A stretch of DNA of 63,066 nt, from the NCBI GenBank assembly GCA_016196035.1, contig JACPYM010000018.1:1-63066 (forward strand), written 5' to 3'. Positions 10,786 to 47,613 of the stretch are shown here, piece by piece; the first letter of the stretch is position 1, and each line of letters opens with the position of its first letter. Source of the stretch: Acidobacteriota bacterium (GTDB lineage: Bacteria; Acidobacteriota; Blastocatellia; RBC074). Under the pieces are notes generated by a model. The model was not told where the DNA came from and did no database searches. It saw nothing but the letters and a program-made list of their open reading frames with translations. The translations under genes were made by a program, and so were the position numbers.

Positions 10786-13683
10786 TCATTGCAACCACTC
10801 CGGCACATCCTCGCCCGTAGCCTCACGCCACGCCGCAGCGAAGCCGTCCCATTTGCCGCGCAAGCTTTTCAGCATATTCACCACGATTCCCGTATTCGGC
10901 GATTGCAGTTTGCTGAAGGCGCCGAGCGCATTCAGCAACCACCCAAACGCTTCGGCACAACGCCCGGTTTCCGTGAGCAACCGTCCGATCTGCCCTTGCG
11001 ATTCCGCCACGCCCGCCACGTTGCCGATCTCTTCCAGAACTTTGAGCGAGCATTGATAGTAGTCGAGCGCCGCCTCGTAGTTCCCCCGATTTTGCTGTAG
11101 CATACCGAAATTGTGCATCAGTACTGCTGCATCGGCGCGTTCAACTCGATCCAGCACGCGGGCATATTGGCTTTCGACGTACCGGCCAAAGCCCCAGCGA
11201 TCGAGCAGTTCGTGCGCGCCGAGCAGAAGCTGAGAGGCATCGCGGTAATCTTCCGCTTCCATCAGCAACTCGAACGCTTCCATCCCGCTCCACACCAGCG
11301 CAGGCGTCTTTTGCTCATCGGGAATCCGCTTTGTCAGGTTGGTGTAAAAGCCGGTGGCCTCGCGCAAGCGGTTGCGCCACGTGCCGGCTTGTTTCTCGCG
11401 GCAGAAAGCGCGCACCAGGCTGTGAACATCCAGACGGCTCAATTCATCGCTTTCATACACCGGCGTCAGCAAGCCCCATTCGATCAGTTCGCGCACCGAC
11501 TGTTGCAAATCGTCCGGCGCTTGCCGTTGGACGGGCAACATCTCCGTCAGCATTTGCAGCAGCGTCGCATCATCGGCGTCTTTCAATTCAGCCGGAAAGT
11601 TTTCATCCTGCCGCAGCATTGCAATCATTGGCTGCAATGCTTCCGGCGACAGTGTCACTGTTTCGCCCATCACCCATTCGGCAGCTTCCAGCGGCACGGC
11701 CACGCGAAACGCCGCCAGCCGATTCAGCAATGTGCGCGCTGGTTCGGTCAAACTTCCGTAATTCAATTCCAGCGCCAGATGCTCGCGCAATTTGGTGTGC
11801 ACGGCTTTGGCGTTCTGCAAGGCGTTGGCGACGGAGGAGGTCTGGCAACACTTATCGAGCGCCACCAACGCGAAGGGATGCCCGCCGAAGGTGTGGTAAA
11901 TCGCTTCTTTCTCGGCGTAGGCGACCTTCGCCAGGCGCGGCAATTTCAGCATCACCGAAAAGGCTTCGGGACGGCTCAGATCGCCGAGCGGCAACGACGC
12001 GACATCGCTGAGACGCTCATCCAACTCGAATAGAAAGCGGCAGGTGAAGACAAACTTCGTGTTCGTCACCGTCGCCTTGACCAGCGCGGCCAGAAAGCGC
12101 CGCAAGCCTTCGTCCGCAATGCGAAAGCCCGCTTCAGTGCGCGCAAGCTGCGTCTCGAAATTATCGAAGATCAACAGCAACGGCCATTGCGCCAACACCT
12201 GCGCCACCATCTGCGCCAGCACCTCCGGCTCTAACGGCTGCCCGACGAATCGTTCGAGCACGCTGATGTCTTGCAACGCAAAGTACCGGTGCAATTCCAA
12301 CAACACACGCTCAGGCGCGAGCGTGGCGCCCGCACAATCGAATGCATAGATGCCTTTGAAACGCGGGCCATCCTGCCGGCGGCGATGGTACAAACGATCT
12401 GCCGCGTGCGCGATCAGCGAAGTTTTGCCGATGCCGCCGATGCCGTGAATGATGACGGCGCGATGGTTTTTGACCAGCAAATCATCGCGCAATTGCCGGT
12501 ACTCTTTGCGGCGTCCGTAAAACTTGAAGCCGAGTTGCGGCAAGGTGCCGAGTTGAAAGCCCGTGTCTATGGTGGGATTGAAATTGACGGTGGGTGCGTC
12601 TGCCGCTTTGGCTTGCAAACAACCGCCGTTGCCCGTCAGCAACACCAGCGCCAGCGCATCGGCTTGCAAGACCGCATCCTCGCTCAGCCACAACGCCCGG
12701 CGCGCGGCGTGGGTTGCCGCTTCGAGCACTTGCCCGGCGCTGAGTTTGGGATAGAGCACTTCGGCCAGCTTCAAACCCCCGCCATCCGAAATCGCAAACT
12801 GCATCGCCAGCACGGCGGGAATTTTCTTTTCGACCAGCGCCCGCGCCAGATCGCGGAAACCGCCGGTGTGCAGCGTCTGCGCCGTGTTGCAACCCGAAAT
12901 CACCGCCAGCCGCAACGTGCCGAAACCTTTTGCCAGCGACGCGACGAAATCGTTGACGCCAACGGGCAGCCGCTTGCCGTCGTGATCTTCCAACAACAAA
13001 CCGCCGCCCTGTTCGGGCGCGATGCCGTGGCCGGTGAAATGCAGAATGTGGTAACCGGCTTCGAGGCTGGACTCCAGAATTTCCAGTTTGGCTTCGTCCT
13101 CGAAATCTACGTGGAGCTTGCCCTGACCGGCGGGCGCATTGATGGCTTCGAGCAACAATTCCTGCTCGCGTTCGATGTTCAGGCGCGAAACATCGGGCAA
13201 ATCCGGCGGCGAAGAAACCAGCGCCAGCATGCGAATGGGCAACGGAATCGCGGGCAAATCGGTTATTGGATCAATGCCGAGCGGCAAGCGCGTGAGCGTG
13301 GTTTTGGCGCCGGCGGCGAGGAATTCCGTGCCGTCGTGCAGCGCCTCCCACGGCACGGCTTCCAGGCGTTTGGCGTCAGCGTGAATGCGCACACGCAAGG
13401 TCAGCAAATCGGCGCGCTCGCGCTGTGCTTGCCAGAGCCGTTCGATTTCGGCAGGGAAAAGTTTTTGATAGAGCTTTTGTCCGAAGGCTTGCAAACGTTC
13501 GAGGCGGCCCAGCGGATCGCGCGGGTTGAAATCCAACCGGCTGATTTCAACTTGCGCCAAATCATCGAGGCGATATTCAAAACGCGCCGAGGCCAACGGC
13601 TGCGCCGCGTCAGGCGCGTAAACCGTGACGTTGAAAATGTCGCTGGTGTCGGACTGCAGATGAAACTCGAGGACGCTTGTCAC
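10786..13683 (-). CDS. CHAT protease-NB-ARC-TPR protein (bacterial NLR/STAND type)
   Basis: I place the start at the GTG at 13683, eight bases after AAAGGA; this gives 965 residues, while upstream ATGs would add a leader without similarity. Order of domains: an N-terminal beta-rich segment (1-150), a CHAT caspase-like protease (about 150-345) with catalytic His219 in HFTGHG and Cys265 in SGCNTA, an NB-ARC/STAND ATPase (about 385-680) with Walker A GIGGIGKTS at 414-422 and Walker B LLLIFDNFE ending at 510, a winged-helix/helical region, and at least two TPR-like repeats near the C-terminus (NRGNYEAALDYY, TGRCAEAFGWL). This is the plan of bacterial NLR-like sensors, in which the TPRs sense a trigger, the ATPase oligomerises and the CHAT domain cleaves a target. 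Immune or cell-death function is inferred from the architecture. Confidence 0.9.
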   Translation of the reverse strand: MTSVLEFHLQSDTSDIFNVTVYAPDAAQPLASARFEYRLDDLAQVEISRLDFNPRDPLGRLERLQAFGQKLYQKLFPAEIERLWQAQRERADLLTLRVRIHADAKRLEAVPWEALHDGTEFLAAGAKTTLTRLPLGIDPITDLPAIPLPIRMLALVSSPPDLPDVSRLNIEREQELLLEAINAPAGQGKLHVDFEDEAKLEILESSLEAGYHILHFTGHGIAPEQGGGLLLEDHDGKRLPVGVNDFVASLAKGFGTLRLAVISGCNTAQTLHTGGFRDLARALVEKKIPAVLAMQFAISDGGGLKLAEVLYPKLSAGQVLEAATHAARRALWLSEDAVLQADALALVLLTGNGGCLQAKAADAPTVNFNPTIDTGFQLGTLPQLGFKFYGRRKEYRQLRDDLLVKNHRAVIIHGIGGIGKTSLIAHAADRLYHRRRQDGPRFKGIYAFDCAGATLAPERVLLELHRYFALQDISVLERFVGQPLEPEVLAQMVAQVLAQWPLLLIFDNFETQLARTEAGFRIADEGLRRFLAALVKATVTNTKFVFTCRFLFELDERLSDVASLPLGDLSRPEAFSVMLKLPRLAKVAYAEKEAIYHTFGGHPFALVALDKCCQTSSVANALQNAKAVHTKLREHLALELNYGSLTEPARTLLNRLAAFRVAVPLEAAEWVMGETVTLSPEALQPMIAMLRQDENFPAELKDADDATLLQMLTEMLPVQRQAPDDLQQSVRELIEWGLLTPVYESDELSRLDVHSLVRAFCREKQAGTWRNRLREATGFYTNLTKRIPDEQKTPALVWSGMEAFELLMEAEDYRDASQLLLGAHELLDRWGFGRYVESQYARVLDRVERADAAVLMHNFGMLQQNRGNYEAALDYYQCSLKVLEEIGNVAGVAESQGQIGRLLTETGRCAEAFGWLLNALGAFSKLQSPNTGIVVNMLKSLRGKWDGFAAAWREATGEDVPEWLQ

Positions 13684-13739
13684 AACACTGTTCCTTTCCA
13701 GTTGAGGCAAACTCAGCCTGGCTGAGGTGAGCCGCAACA

Positions 13740-14335
13740 TTGACGCTGGGATTTCGCACTTGCCGGAATTCGCCCTGTGAAGCTGTAACCGCATAAAAGA
13801 TTCAGCGGCAACCAATGAAAGACTGTTCCAAGCAATCGTACACATGCCTGCGGTCTCCGACAATCGGGTATCCGTCAATATTTTGTGCCAAGACAGGCCA
13901 AGGCGGCTCGCGCAGGAGTAGCGCCACCCGCCGAGGTTGCGCGGCTTCATCAATGACGGACATGGCTATACCTCCGACCGCGGCGCAAGTGGTGAAGCCG
14001 CGCAAACCCGGCGGGTTGCGCTACTTGCGCCGCAGCGTCCGTTGCCGTGCACGCAAAACCTTGACGCCCACCCTCGACAATCCACACACAATGTTTATCG
14101 CCCGCGCATAGCCACCCCCGCGCATAGAACGGCTGCCGGAAGGACGCCGCCCTTCCGCACATCAGGCGGTACAGCCACAAAGCGATCCTCGAAAATTTAC
14201 AGGAAGCATAAATCCCCATCCCCATTGCGCAATCAATGGCAGTTGTAGTGACATGAAATTCATCGTGCCGCTATGTCGCGGTGCATGGCAAGCATCCATT
14301 CGAGAAATTCCTGGCAAAGAATCCGGCAGAGAATT
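13740..14335. repeat. gene-free region with palindromic repeat (family F)
   Basis: No gene is supported. Inverted arms at 13918-13951 and 13992-14024 share GTAGCGCCACCCGCCGAGGT-type sequence (GTAGCGCAACCCGCCGGGTT in the other arm), a GC-rich palindrome. The remainder is unstructured to my eye and lies between the divergently oriented CHAT and DUF1592 genes, so both promoters should be here. Confidence 0.7.
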
Positions 14336-17017: not shown

Positions 17018-17293
17018 ATGAAGTTCGAGTGGGACGTCGCGAAATGCCAGACCAATCTTGCTAAACACGGCATTGATTTTGCCGATGTGGGGCCATTGTT
17101 TGACGGAGTAACTGTGACCATGCCGGACGACCGCTTTGATTATGGCGAAGAGCGTTTCGTCACACTCGGATTGCTCAACGGTTTCGTGCTGGTGGTTGTT
17201 CATACAGAAACTGACAAGGTCATCAGGCTCATCTCCGTTCGCAAGGCTACGAAAAATGAAGAAAAGAGTTACTTCAACGAAATCGCAAACTGA
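17018..17293 (+). CDS. brnT: BrnT-family ribonuclease toxin
   Basis: This 91-residue product has the BrnT pattern: MKFEWDVAK at the start, NLAKHGIDFADV, DDRFDYGEERFVTLGLLNG and the C-terminal VIRLISVRKATKNEEKSYF. BrnT is a RelE-like ribonuclease that halts translation and is neutralised by BrnA, whose gene overlaps this one by 38 bases. A strong promoter ends just before the ATG. The pair lies between the intact DUF1592 gene and a second copy of that gene's 3' end, which suggests insertion or rearrangement at this point. Confidence 0.92.
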   Translation: MKFEWDVAKCQTNLAKHGIDFADVGPLFDGVTVTMPDDRFDYGEERFVTLGLLNGFVLVVVHTETDKVIRLISVRKATKNEEKSYFNEIAN

Positions 17294-17817: not shown

Positions 17818-18693
17818 TCAACCACGCTCCAATAACATCAGCCCGCCACACTCCAACCATTCCGCCAAAATCTCTTGCGCTTGCGGCGCTTTGACGCCGG
17901 TCATGGCGGCGCGTGTGAGCAGGCTGCGGATTTCCGCCGGACGTTTCGCTTCGCCCAACACGCCCCAAGTCGGTTTATCAATGTGCGTGAGGGTGATGCC
18001 CGTCGCGCCGGGGCTGAAGAGCAGATACAACTTGCGTTTGGGTTCGACGGCGGGCAATTGCGGCAAACGCGGCGCGTCGTCACAGAGCGCCATTGCGGGC
18101 ATCAGGCTCAATTCAAACAAGTATTGTTCGACGGTTTGAATCGCTTCGATCACATTGGCCTGGAAGCTGGCGACGCCGTAACCGGGCGCGAGGCGAATGT
18201 GTGCTCGGTCGTTAATCGTTGCCGGCAATTCACTGGGTTCGTAAGCGCCTTCGCGCGCCAGGGTGCGGCGGCAGGCGGCGACGGCGGCTTCGAGGCGCAC
18301 GATGTCGGTGATTTGCGGGGCGCGCCAGACGCCATTGCGGCAGCCGTCCAAGAGAAATTCGGAAAAGGACAGCGCCAACGAGCCGCGCTGTTGCACGGCT
18401 TGATGAAAGAACGCGCTGGAAAAGAATTGTTCGAGCGCGGCCAGCGAACGCGTTTCGGCGAGGATGATCGTGGTGGAGACTTTGAACTCTTCGGCCAGCG
18501 TGCGCAGCGTGCGTTTGCGGCGCAAAGCATCGTGCCGCCAGGCGCGGCGGTCTACGGCCAAGAGTTGCGCGCGTTCGGCGGCGGTGAGTTCCAAACCTTG
18601 CAACGCCTGTTCGGGCGCGGCGTGCACGGCGGCGACAAAGGCTTCGTCCCAGAACATGCGCACGACCAGTTTTTGCAGCGTGTGATGACTCAT
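17818..18693 (-). CDS. partner protein of the MNIO enzyme
   Basis: This 291-residue protein starts four bases inside the end of the MNIO gene (ATGA overlap), which implies translational coupling. Its N-terminal third is a helical domain (LVVRMFWDEAFVAAVHAAPE to LRTLAEEF), with the look of the short helical domain found in LigA-like or Nif11-like leader regions. The rest is alpha/beta with few motifs (GVWRAPQITDIVRLEAAVAACRRTLA). MNIO enzymes of the DUF692 family need a partner protein that presents the substrate peptide; this gene occupies that position. I see no separate precursor peptide beside it. It could be the recruitment partner, or its helical N-terminus could itself be the target; both are inference. 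Confidence 0.75.
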   Translation of the reverse strand: MSHHTLQKLVVRMFWDEAFVAAVHAAPEQALQGLELTAAERAQLLAVDRRAWRHDALRRKRTLRTLAEEFKVSTTIILAETRSLAALEQFFSSAFFHQAVQQRGSLALSFSEFLLDGCRNGVWRAPQITDIVRLEAAVAACRRTLAREGAYEPSELPATINDRAHIRLAPGYGVASFQANVIEAIQTVEQYLFELSLMPAMALCDDAPRLPQLPAVEPKRKLYLLFSPGATGITLTHIDKPTWGVLGEAKRPAEIRSLLTRAAMTGVKAPQAQEILAEWLECGGLMLLERG

Positions 18694-19568
18694 TGCGCGG
18701 TGACTCCGGCTTGAACGGGGAACAGCGCGTTGAGCCGTTCAAAGTTGGCAATACAAGCTTCCGGCAGATTGTGTTCGCATTCAAAGACGATGGCTTTGAG
18801 GTTGGGCGCGCGCGGCACGACGTATTCCAAAATCTCCCATGTCGCCGGTAAGGGTTCAGGTGAATGGTTGTCTTCGATGTAAGCGTAGCCTTCGACTTCG
18901 GTGTAAGCGCCGCCCGCGACGTGCATTTCGATGATGCGGTCGAGCGGGAAATTGTCGAGCGCGGCGAGCGGCGACAGACCGCGCGTTTGTTGAAAGATGG
19001 CGAGGTGCGCGCAATCCAGCAAGACGCCGCAATCGGCCTGTTCAGCCACCAGCGCGAAATAATCGAGGATGTGCAACTCGCCCAGATAAATCACCGAGGG
19101 CGGATTTTCAGGCAGACAGAACAGGCCGGTTTCACTTTCAATCGTCTTGATGCTTGCGGCTGTTTCCAGCGCGGACTCGCGGCTCAAGATCGGCGGCAGC
19201 AACAGCCCGTGGCCGCGTTCGCGCGCGCCGAAATGCCAGCGGCCCGCATCGCCGCACAGCCAGGCCGCACCGATTTCGCGGGCGAACGTCTTGGTGCGCG
19301 TCAGCCAGTGTTGATCGAGGTCGGCTTGCTCTTCGAGATTGATGTCGAGGAAGTGATAGGTCGTCGCGCCGCCGTGCGCGGCCCAGCGCCGCACGCCGTC
19401 ATCAAGGCCGCGTTCGAGGTCGCCGCCGTATTCATAAAAATGCACCAGCGCCGGGTAATGCTCTTTCAGCCACGCGACGTCAATGCCTTTTGCGCCGCTG
19501 TTGAACTCGCCGGAAAGGCCGACGCCCAGGCGCGGCAGCCGCTGCACTCTGTTTGCGAATGTGCTCAT
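18690..19568 (-). CDS. MNIO (DUF692) multinuclear non-heme iron oxidative enzyme
   Basis: The 292-residue TIM-barrel protein carries the DUF692/MNIO signature: GVGLSGEF, LPENPP with Glu154, LDCAHL with Asp185 and His188, EMHVAGG with His216, and EDNHSPEPL with His234. These positions correspond to the iron ligands of family members such as MbnB and TglH. The enzymes modify cysteine residues of small ribosomal peptides in oxygen-dependent reactions. The gene is first in a two-gene operon with the partner at 17818-18693 and is expressed from a promoter that looks leaderless. The class is confident; the substrate is unknown because no precursor is evident nearby. Confidence 0.88.
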   Translation of the reverse strand: MSTFANRVQRLPRLGVGLSGEFNSGAKGIDVAWLKEHYPALVHFYEYGGDLERGLDDGVRRWAAHGGATTYHFLDINLEEQADLDQHWLTRTKTFAREIGAAWLCGDAGRWHFGARERGHGLLLPPILSRESALETAASIKTIESETGLFCLPENPPSVIYLGELHILDYFALVAEQADCGVLLDCAHLAIFQQTRGLSPLAALDNFPLDRIIEMHVAGGAYTEVEGYAYIEDNHSPEPLPATWEILEYVVPRAPNLKAIVFECEHNLPEACIANFERLNALFPVQAGVTAQ

Positions 19569-19575
19569 ACGCCGG

Positions 19576-19605
19576 ATTGTAGCGGACGGTGAAAGACAGG
19601 CTCAA
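19576..19605 (-). promoter_or_regulatory. promoter of the MNIO operon, leaderless
   Basis: On the minus strand TTGAGC, an 18-base spacer and TACAAT end seven bases before the MNIO ATG; no ribosome site exists between them. The same -10 hexamer and the same layout precede brnT. Confidence 0.65.
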
Positions 19606-19628
19606 GCGTCGCCCGCGCGGCCAGACAT

Positions 19629-19933
19629 TTGCCACAGAGGCACGGAGACACAGAGGAAGAAAAAGAGAGCGGAAGCTGATGTCGGGACACTTTTGGCAGC
19701 GCGGAAGATAGATACGCGGATGACGCGGATGCAGTGGATCGGCGCGGATCAACCAAAAGAAAAATCCGTAAAATCCGCATCATCCGCGTATCCAAGTTGC
19801 CTCGTTTTGAAGCGCTTGGGCGCATCTTTTCAAAAGCGTCCCTGACTTTAGGAATGGAAGAGGAAGAAAGAGGGGGTTGTTGCAATATCTCCATACCAAA
19901 TTTCCCTCTGTGTCTCCGTGCCTCTGTGGCAAA
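19629..19933. repeat. palindromic repeat (TTGCCACAGAGGCAC family G), copy 1
   Basis: Arms TTGCCACAGAGGCACGGAGA at 19629-19656 and its inverse at 19915-19933 bracket a second nested inverted pair (GATACGCGGATGACGCGGAT near 19711 and ATCATCCGCGTATCC near 19779). The outer word recurs inside the elements at 24948-25080 and 32851-33028. No gene is seen in the 462-base gap that holds it. Confidence 0.85.
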
Positions 19934-20031
19934 CCTGATTTGTGTGCATGCCGGCTGGCGATTCTGCTGGAACTGACTGAGAATGCGCCCGGCAATTCAC
20001 CACAACCACTTCACCAATCAAGGAGCAACCC

Positions 20032-20921: not shown

Positions 20922-21444
20922 CTCAGCCCCTCTTCGCCGCGTAGCGGCGGCTGACTTTAGCCGTGGGTTTCAACCCACGGTGGATGTGGAAACAAGCCCG
21001 CGTCGCGTCAGCGACGCCTGAATTCAACCGTCGCTGACGCGACGCGGACCATGATGCCCTTCCTGTCCCGTGGGTTGAAACCTTGTCATTACCCAAACTT
21101 TGCACGAAACGTGTAGTCGGGTTTTCAGCCCGCGAAGGCGGGCGGCAGCATAAAGCCCAGGGTGTAGTGCACACGCGCGGAACCCTGGGAACATTGGCGA
21201 AAACCCGCACAGCCCGCGAAGGCGGGCGGCAGAGCGTGGAGAGCCAATCAATGTCTGTCGCCCGCGTTCGCGGGCTTGCGGCTTCAACTTGACGCTTTCC
21301 TGGGGTTCCGGCTGCGCCTTCACCCCAGGCTTTATGCTGCCGCCCGCGTTCGCGGGCTGAAATCATGCAAAGATTTGGGTAAGGACAAGGGGTTGAAACC
21401 CACGGCTAAAGTCAGCCGCCGCTACGCGGCGAAGAGGGGCTGAG
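20922..21444. repeat. 523-bp nested palindrome
   Basis: The outer arms 20922-20975 and 21391-21444 are perfect 54-base inverted copies. Within them lie further inverted pairs: CCTTGTCATTACCCAAA (21079 on) with TTTGGGTAAGGACAAGG, AAAGCCCGCGAAGGCGGGCGGCAG-type words against CTGCCGCCCGCGTTCGCGGG, and the short hairpins GCGTCGCGTCAGCGACGCC / CGTCGCTGACGCGACGC at 21000-21050. The whole block would fold into a branched cruciform. It holds no gene I can support. Confidence 0.92.
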
Positions 21445-47417: not shown

Positions 47418-47613
47418 TAAAGCCCTGAAAGGGCGCAATTCAATAGCCCAGGGCAACGCCCTGGGTGACGGCAATATGGAAGGAACAAGCCCTGATAAGG
47501 GCACAATAACGACGTTTATTGCGCCCTTTCAGGGCTTGAGAACCTCTCGGCTGTTACCAGGGGCGTCGCTTCGCTTTGCCCCTGGCTATTGAATGTCGCC
47601 CCGTTGGGGCTTG
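47418..47613. repeat. palindromic repeat cluster (family B), copy 2
   Basis: AAGCCCTGAAAGGGCGCAAT and TTGCGCCCTTTCAGGGCTT are inverted arms; between and after them are GCCCAGGGCAACGCCCTGGG and GCCCCGTTGGGGC. This matches the vocabulary at 2018-2199. It occupies the 460-base gap between the DUF1553 and sigma genes, where no gene is supported. Confidence 0.85.

Follow-up and report, generated by a model that had tools for sequence, protein, structure and literature searches.

The window analyzed here, a stretch of 63,066 nucleotides (nt) from an Acidobacteriota bacterium of the class Blastocatellia (positions 1 to 63,066 of contig JACPYM010000018.1, assembly GCA_016196035.1), carries on its minus strand a two-gene unit that encodes a multinuclear non-heme iron-dependent oxidative enzyme (MNIO) of the MbnB_TglH_ChrH family and a partner protein. 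The MNIO gene (18690..19568) encodes 292 amino acids (aa) and belongs to a divergent subfamily; its product is matched by PF05114 with an E-value of 1.6e-19 and a score of 70.7 bits, well over the cut-off (25 bits), and it is the one MNIO found in its genome (96.9% complete). The partner gene (17818..18693) encodes a TglI-like protein of 291 aa in the style of the PME-type 2 partners, for which no Pfam family match was obtained. The stop codon of the MNIO gene and the start codon of the partner gene share an ATGA overlap (18690..18693), as read from the sequence. Both open reading frames (ORFs) of the two-gene unit described in the original prediction, and their coupling through the overlap at 18693-18690, were confirmed.

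The iron-site residues of the enzyme were found to depart from those of ordinary MNIOs at two positions, in disagreement with the full set of DUF692 metal motifs that had been ascribed to it. A joint alignment was made of 47 subfamily members and 30 ordinary MNIOs, the latter being the loci in the window's class with the best PF05114 matches and not a sample of all MNIOs. Position 107 (codon 19248..19250, minus strand, like all codons given here) is Asp in 47/47 members and His in 30/30 ordinary MNIOs, and position 188 (19005..19007) is His in 47/47 members and Asn, a residue of iron site 3, in 30/30 ordinary MNIOs. Just four histidines, at positions 72, 107, 216, and 235, are invariant in the 30 ordinary MNIOs. 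His72 (19353..19355) is kept in both sets, and Glu154 (19107..19109), Asp185 (19014..19016), His216 (18921..18923), Asp233-x-His235 (18864..18872), and Glu263 (18780..18782) are invariant in both. With endonuclease IV taken as a topological guide, residues 72 and 107 would presumably belong to site 1, residues 154, 185, 216, and 263 to site 2 (Glu154 as a putative bridging ligand), and residues 188, 233, and 235 to site 3. Judged from the sequences, one of the two site 1 histidines would thus be exchanged for Asp, and site 3 would gain a histidine to become His-Asp-His; His112, which is invariant in the 47 members, might replace the lost site 1 ligand. Published work, which is cited here and below from individual passages, describes a ferric site 1 with two histidines in MbnB that binds the substrate thiolate, and a site 2 with one histidine, and predicts N175, D242, and H244 of HvfB to be site 3 residues (PMC13419390).

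Further differences surround these positions. All 47 members have Cys105-Gly106-Asp107, compared to Ser (29/30), Asp or Glu (30/30), and His (30/30) in the ordinary MNIOs, and Glu21 and Glu265 of the members replace an Arg and an Asp. A profile alignment placed the His and Asn of MbnB at 107 and 188; 3bww and TglH agree at 188, 3bww being gapped and TglH not covered at 107. A profile-profile alignment built from eight ordinary sequences put Asp107 on the neighboring acidic residue, and the joint alignment, gap-free around 107, was preferred.

The partner protein was modeled with AlphaFold2 (32 alignment rows), with a mean predicted local distance difference test score (pLDDT) of 93.0 and a predicted template modeling score (pTM) of 0.90. 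Structures similar to the model are TglI, aligned along residues 1-289 (Foldseek E 1e-5; Z 13.6, 246 aligned residues, root-mean-square deviation (rmsd) 6.2), NGO1945 (3dee; Z 12.5, 192 aligned residues, rmsd 4.6), and MbnC (Z 5.3), and three parts can be distinguished. Residues 1-62 (18508..18693, minus strand) form a predicted helical N-terminus, residues 52-148 (18250..18540, minus) a DUF2063-like helical domain, the NGO1945 match starting at model residue 52, and residues 160-291 (17821..18216, minus) a C-terminal domain resembling the RiPP recognition element (RRE; RiPP, ribosomally synthesized and post-translationally modified peptide). The latter matches the RRE-domain proteins TbiB1 (5v1v; Z 7.2), MibB (Z 8.1), and ThcOx (Z 7.7), with Z of about 7-8 being a common level. 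PF09836 matched 0/33 members of the partner family at E 0.1. With its TglI/NGO1945-like fold and without the DUF2063 signature, the protein is an MNIO partner of the type named PME-type 2 in PMC12452194.

The helical N-terminus expected from the sequence was reproduced by the AlphaFold2 model, and its resemblance to a leader was borne out by the crystal structure of Os1348 (6lk7), which superposes on residues 1-62 (Z 8.5, 62 aligned residues, rmsd 1.9 Å). Residues 6-51 match NF038399, the nitrile hydratase leader peptide (NHLP) model of Os1348, with 31.2 bits, under the curated cut-off of 40. NF038399 matches 22/33 partners at E 0.01, and the RiPP precursor family PF14407 (Frankia_peptide) was found in 10/33. 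A crystal structure has been described for Os1348, a putative precursor (PMC7726476), and the Os1348-type proteins PosA and PflA are modified in MNIO-nitroreductase pathways, PflA being hydroxylated at Asp by the MNIO domain (PMC12636437).

The fold of the enzyme and its placement relative to the partner were modeled through the homologous locus L006, the two genes of which were joined by reading through the intervening stops to give a tethered protein of 633 residues (32 alignment rows). The model reached a pTM of 0.87 and a mean pLDDT of 89, with most blocks of both parts above 90. Since this pTM was obtained despite a disordered linker of 47 residues, a defined relative placement of MNIO and partner is predicted. 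The MNIO part resembles TglH (Z 26.9), MbnB (Z ~24), and 3bww (Z 22.4), and sugar epimerases at Z 15-17.5; this homologue has the TIM-barrel fold of MbnB and TglH, and the window protein is predicted to share it.

A search of genomes for the two-gene unit revealed that the pair is kept together in nearly all loci. A scan of genome contigs returned 12 related loci with MNIO identities of 54-77%, from records of Acidobacteria, Blastocatellia, Myxococcales, and one uncultured bacterium, and the partner gene was present in 12/12. Matches to a partner profile were found in 6/297 genomes drawn from the window's phylum and 14/162 of its class, in 30/235 genomes drawn from the phylum of the L011 genome, and in 7/294 drawn from that of the L012 genome; the clade spans records named Acidobacteria and Myxococcales and a third group reached via L012. 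Any MNIO was found in 50/162 genomes of the window's class. MNIOs of the divergent type, with near full-length PF05114 matches of 67-77 bits, are confined to exactly the 14 class genomes with the partner, and the two genes adjoin on the same contig in 14/14; a 65.7-bit PF05114 piece in genome G404 represents part of an ordinary MNIO that is split. In the phylum of the L011 genome, a subfamily MNIO adjoins the partner match, or is read in the same frame, in 27/30 cases, and an MNIO lies beside the partner in 6/6 new matches in the phylum of the L012 genome. MNIO and partner occupy one open reading frame at L050, L053, L057, L078, L114, and L115, and partly at L054. A fusion at L019, suspected from an open frame of 577 aa, was rejected, the two genes lying in different frames. 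At the 33 loci with separate genes, whose starts were predicted by script, the genes overlap by 4 or 1 nt in 26 and are separated by a gap of 20 nt or less in 30. The role as partner that had been proposed for the 291-residue protein is upheld by its TglI/NGO1945-like fold, by this adjacency, and by the seven same-frame pairs.

The original prediction reported no visible precursor near the pair, and this held in a wider comparison: no small gene family was found at a fixed place across 35 related loci, and no Cys-rich precursor was found at a fixed distance in them. A first ORF comparison covered the window and 12 loci, with up to 10 kb on each side. Beyond the pair and shadow frames, it returned two families of larger ORFs, each in 3/13 loci (L003, L007, and L011; L001, L007, and L011). 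The 35-locus comparison left the window out and listed the 25 most widespread families, further three-locus families being possible; the listed families included kinase-like ORFs and further larger ones, found at varying distances and in no more than seven loci, and no recognizable biosynthetic neighbors were present among the shared genes listed. Some neighborhoods are shared by a few loci each. L003, L005, and L025 have in common a large upstream gene that ends 114-121 nt before the MNIO gene, L063, L067, and L071 have a common neighborhood, mostly on the opposite strand, and L062, L064, L065, and L068 have in common the upstream gene next to the MNIO gene, which, judged by eye, may be of the NRDE/TANGO2 type.

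Small same-strand ORFs of 30-250 aa were compared within 1.5 kb in 15 close loci, and in a second set of 22 loci. In the close loci, only ORFs in other frames of the partner gene and the upstream stretch of L003, L005, and L025 recurred; the former were interpreted as shadow ORFs, the latter as local synteny among close kin. The second set gave only two three-locus families, both from the neighborhood of L063, L067, and L071. Within the window, an ORF of 109 aa (19894-19565) overlapping the MNIO start was rejected as a precursor; it spans a repeat element with perfect inverted arms of 29 nt (19628-19656 and 19905-19933), and a query of 19600-19960 gave 127 matches in the window's own genome, mostly to these arms. 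Sizeable proportions of bufferin precursors are described as not encoded beside MNIO genes (PMC12452194), so a precursor beside the MNIO gene is no strict criterion.

The partner contains a conserved loop, LFELSLMPAMALCDDAPRL (residues 192-210; 18064..18120, minus strand), with Cys204 and Asp206. Residues 192-207 are the most conserved stretch of 16 residues in 15 close partners (mean majority share 0.89), and the loop was modeled with a pLDDT of 78 (block 191-200) and 70 (block 201-210), compared to mostly above 90 in the other blocks. Among 21 loop-bearing partners (the window, L001-L012, L017, L019, L025, L059, L060, and L110-L112), Cys204 is present in 19/21 and Asp206 in 21/21; L059 and L060 have Ala in place of the cysteine. 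The loop motif gave one significant match in the window's own genome. When 47 MNIOs were placed in an unrooted maximum-likelihood tree, one branch (support 100/95) split the rows with the loop from those without it, L059 and L060 adjoining the loopless rows. The 26 related pairs across this branch lack the loop, and the retention of the pair in a loopless sister clade argues that the loop is not the common target of all pairs. At 35 MNIO positions the residue differs with the presence of the loop, for example Cys180 in 20/21 compared to Thr or Ser in 26/26; these positions sort with the phylogeny and were not regarded as proving contact. Tethered folding of L006, in which the loop might have become ordered beside the enzyme, left it poorly ordered, with a pLDDT of 69 and 64.

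We propose, with a probability of about 0.5, that this TglHI-like pair with a rebuilt iron center oxidizes a peptide or protein whose gene lies elsewhere in the genome. The TIM barrel of the MNIO would hold a multi-iron center in which one site 1 histidine is Asp and site 3 is His-Asp-His, and the partner, with its RRE-like domain, would dock beside it as the substrate-binding subunit; the loop with Cys204-x-Asp206 would, in the clade of the window, most likely help to form a substrate channel or gate. In favor of this proposal are the folds of the two proteins, their predicted relative placement, the adjacency and the same-frame pairs, the missing small family at 35 loci compared to Cys-rich ORFs upstream of 7/30 ordinary MNIOs, the loopless clade that keeps the pair, and the bufferin precursors encoded away from MNIO genes. 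Several observations weigh against it. Searches of the window's own genome found no substrate in trans, the sole NF038399 match being the partner itself and nothing exceeding the TIGR04509 cut-off. Three of the 30 partner matches in the phylum of the L011 genome lack an MNIO in the stretch examined: L043/L072, with none within 1.5 kb upstream, L055, which lies near a contig end, and L058, a match of 22.5 bits. When the same script was run as a control on 30 ordinary class MNIOs, Cys-rich ORFs were found just upstream in 7 and a partner family in 13; no such precursor was found in the other 23/30, so a divergent precursor in cis could have escaped detection at the loci of the subfamily, and a divergent or distant precursor may exist. 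Finally, with its iron-site residues altered, the enzyme might catalyze a different reaction, or no reaction on peptides.

The pair could instead act on itself, the MNIO oxidizing Cys204 or Asp206 of its own partner to yield a modified 32-kDa protein, and we regard this as a tentative possibility. The loop combines the highest conservation with low model confidence, as if kept for chemistry or docking, its Cys and Asp are kept in nearly all and in all loop-bearing partners, respectively, MNIOs are described as acting on Cys and also on Asp (PMC12636437, PMC13060819), and no precursor was found in cis. Against this stand the Ala of L059 and L060 and the loopless clade, which weaken Cys204 as a universal target, the tethered model, in which docking does not order the loop, and the hydrophobic character of several invariant loop positions, which fits a packing role. 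A target in cis may therefore be allowed in the loop clade, but not as a rule for the whole family. That a self-sufficient MNIO with a rebuilt iron center oxidizes Cys204-x-Asp206 of its own helper in cis is, in our estimate, doubtful; if true, it would yield a full-size protein in modified form, a protein-derived cofactor or metal site with an N-terminal domain that RiPP precursors also have. As a candidate in cis the loop is nevertheless better than the helical N-terminus, even though the sister clade lacks it. The original prediction had proposed that the N-terminus is a built-in leader or substrate, and the matches to NF038399, PF14407, and Os1348, together with the modification of PosA and PflA in MNIO-nitroreductase pathways, speak for it. 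The same Os1348-like segment, however, was found in 5/5 ORFs, picked by eye, that follow MNIOs of other clades, which makes a standard piece of the partner more likely than a substrate; in addition, no core separates it from the DUF2063-like domain, which follows directly, and TglI aligns from its own residue 1. NF038399 matched 0/3 HvfC-type partners tested, and the fused L078 protein was also without a match. The segment is probably a normal part of non-HvfC-type partners, and its role as leader or substrate appears very improbable.

The barrel might, alternatively, be a small-molecule metal enzyme, or part of a metal-responsive pair, and not a peptide oxidase. The exchanges of His for Asp107 and Asn for His188 throughout the 47 members, the lack of recognizable biosynthetic neighbors among the shared genes listed, and the likeness to sugar epimerases would fit such a role, whereas the scores against TglH, MbnB, and 3bww lie well above those against the epimerases, and a TglI-like partner carrying an RRE-like domain has been retained next to the enzyme or in fusion with it. 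We consider this role unlikely.

A sigma-70-like promoter, TTGAGC-18-TACAAT (19576..19605, minus strand), ends 7 nt before the ATG of the MNIO gene, an arrangement of the leaderless type. Alone, the window promoter is weak, as 2 sites were found compared to 0.7 expected in shuffles. A TANAAT hexamer ending 7 nt before the start is present at 6/16 close loci, several of them close kin (the window, L003, L005, L019, L025, and L010, the last read by eye). The leaderless message that had been proposed is plausible from the sequences for the window and its nearest kin, and does not extend to all loci.

Other features of the window were recorded alongside. Three Acido-Lenti-1 RNAs exceed the gathering score (2019-2063, 20935-20980, and 47421-47465, minus strand), one of them lying just past the end of the luciferase-like gene that adjoins the MNIO/partner unit. 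A BrnT-type ribonuclease toxin (17018-17293, plus strand; PF04365, E 2.3e-25) is followed by an ORF that may encode an antitoxin, and the product of 10786-13953 (minus), which gave matches to CHAT, AAA/STAND-like NTPase, and TPR, is possibly a defense or cell-death protein. A further MNIO clade of the class, to which L090, L092, L093, L098, and similar loci belong, is accompanied by a partner of roughly 180-200 aa that begins with an Os1348-like segment; no Cys-rich family was found alongside these loci in the small-ORF comparison, and they may be a second kind without a precursor in cis. At L107, NF038399 is matched with 40.2 bits, just over the cut-off, by a short ORF (1152-1613, minus) located after an MNIO whose metal residues are ordinary; this ORF would encode a free Os1348-like protein, either a precursor or a minimal partner.

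In the passages cited, the characterized MNIOs act on small precursor peptides, and PMC12452194 suggests that MNIOs may modify proteins too; the clade described here offers a way to test if a protein of full size can serve as an MNIO substrate. Its fixed iron-site exchanges, with no nearby precursor found, likewise offer a way to test the job of each iron site. The role of the third site has been called puzzling (PMC13419390), and the paired exchange, by which one histidine is lost from site 1 and one is added to site 3, can serve as a natural experiment on it. No paper on this MNIO subfamily was present among the open-access matches listed, a scope outside which most subscription papers lie.

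Several known systems invite comparison with the window pair. MbnBC of the methanobactin pathway shares the MNIO barrel (Z ~24, for the L006 homologue) and a partner, MbnC, with Z 5.3; it differs from the window pair in the His and Asn of MbnB, compared to Asp107 and His188, and in its shorter partner, the window partner having an Os1348-like start, and no cis precursor was found for the window pair. HvfBC and the bufferin proteins BufBC are alike in combining an MNIO with a helical partner that has an RRE-like domain, whereas bufferin-type precursors contain Cys and mostly lie in the cluster (PMC12452194), and the three HvfC-type partners tested lack the Os1348-like match. The NHLP precursors Os1348, PosA, and PflA (PMC7726476, PMC12636437) share the Os1348 fold with partner residues 1-62; Os1348 is a free protein of 85 aa, whereas the version in the window partner is fused to DUF2063-like and RRE-like domains. 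The PME-type 2 partners, such as WP_006975235 of Plesiocystis pacifica (276 aa), are alike in directly following the MNIO and in having an NGO1945/TglI-like fold without the DUF2063 signature, as described in PMC12452194, in the main text of which the words Acidobacter, Nif11, Os1348, and Myxococc were not found. TglHI of the pearlin, or 3-thiaglutamate, pathway (8hi7) is likewise an enzyme with a partner, and both of its subunits match by fold, TglH with the L006 homologue and TglI with the window partner. It differs in sequence, at 15% identity in both alignments, in having a TglA precursor, the like of which was not found for the window pair, and in the iron-site His and Asn exchanged in the window pair (the Asn of TglH is aligned, the site 1 His not covered); the window partner, in turn, has the conserved Cys-x-Asp loop that sets it apart from TglI.

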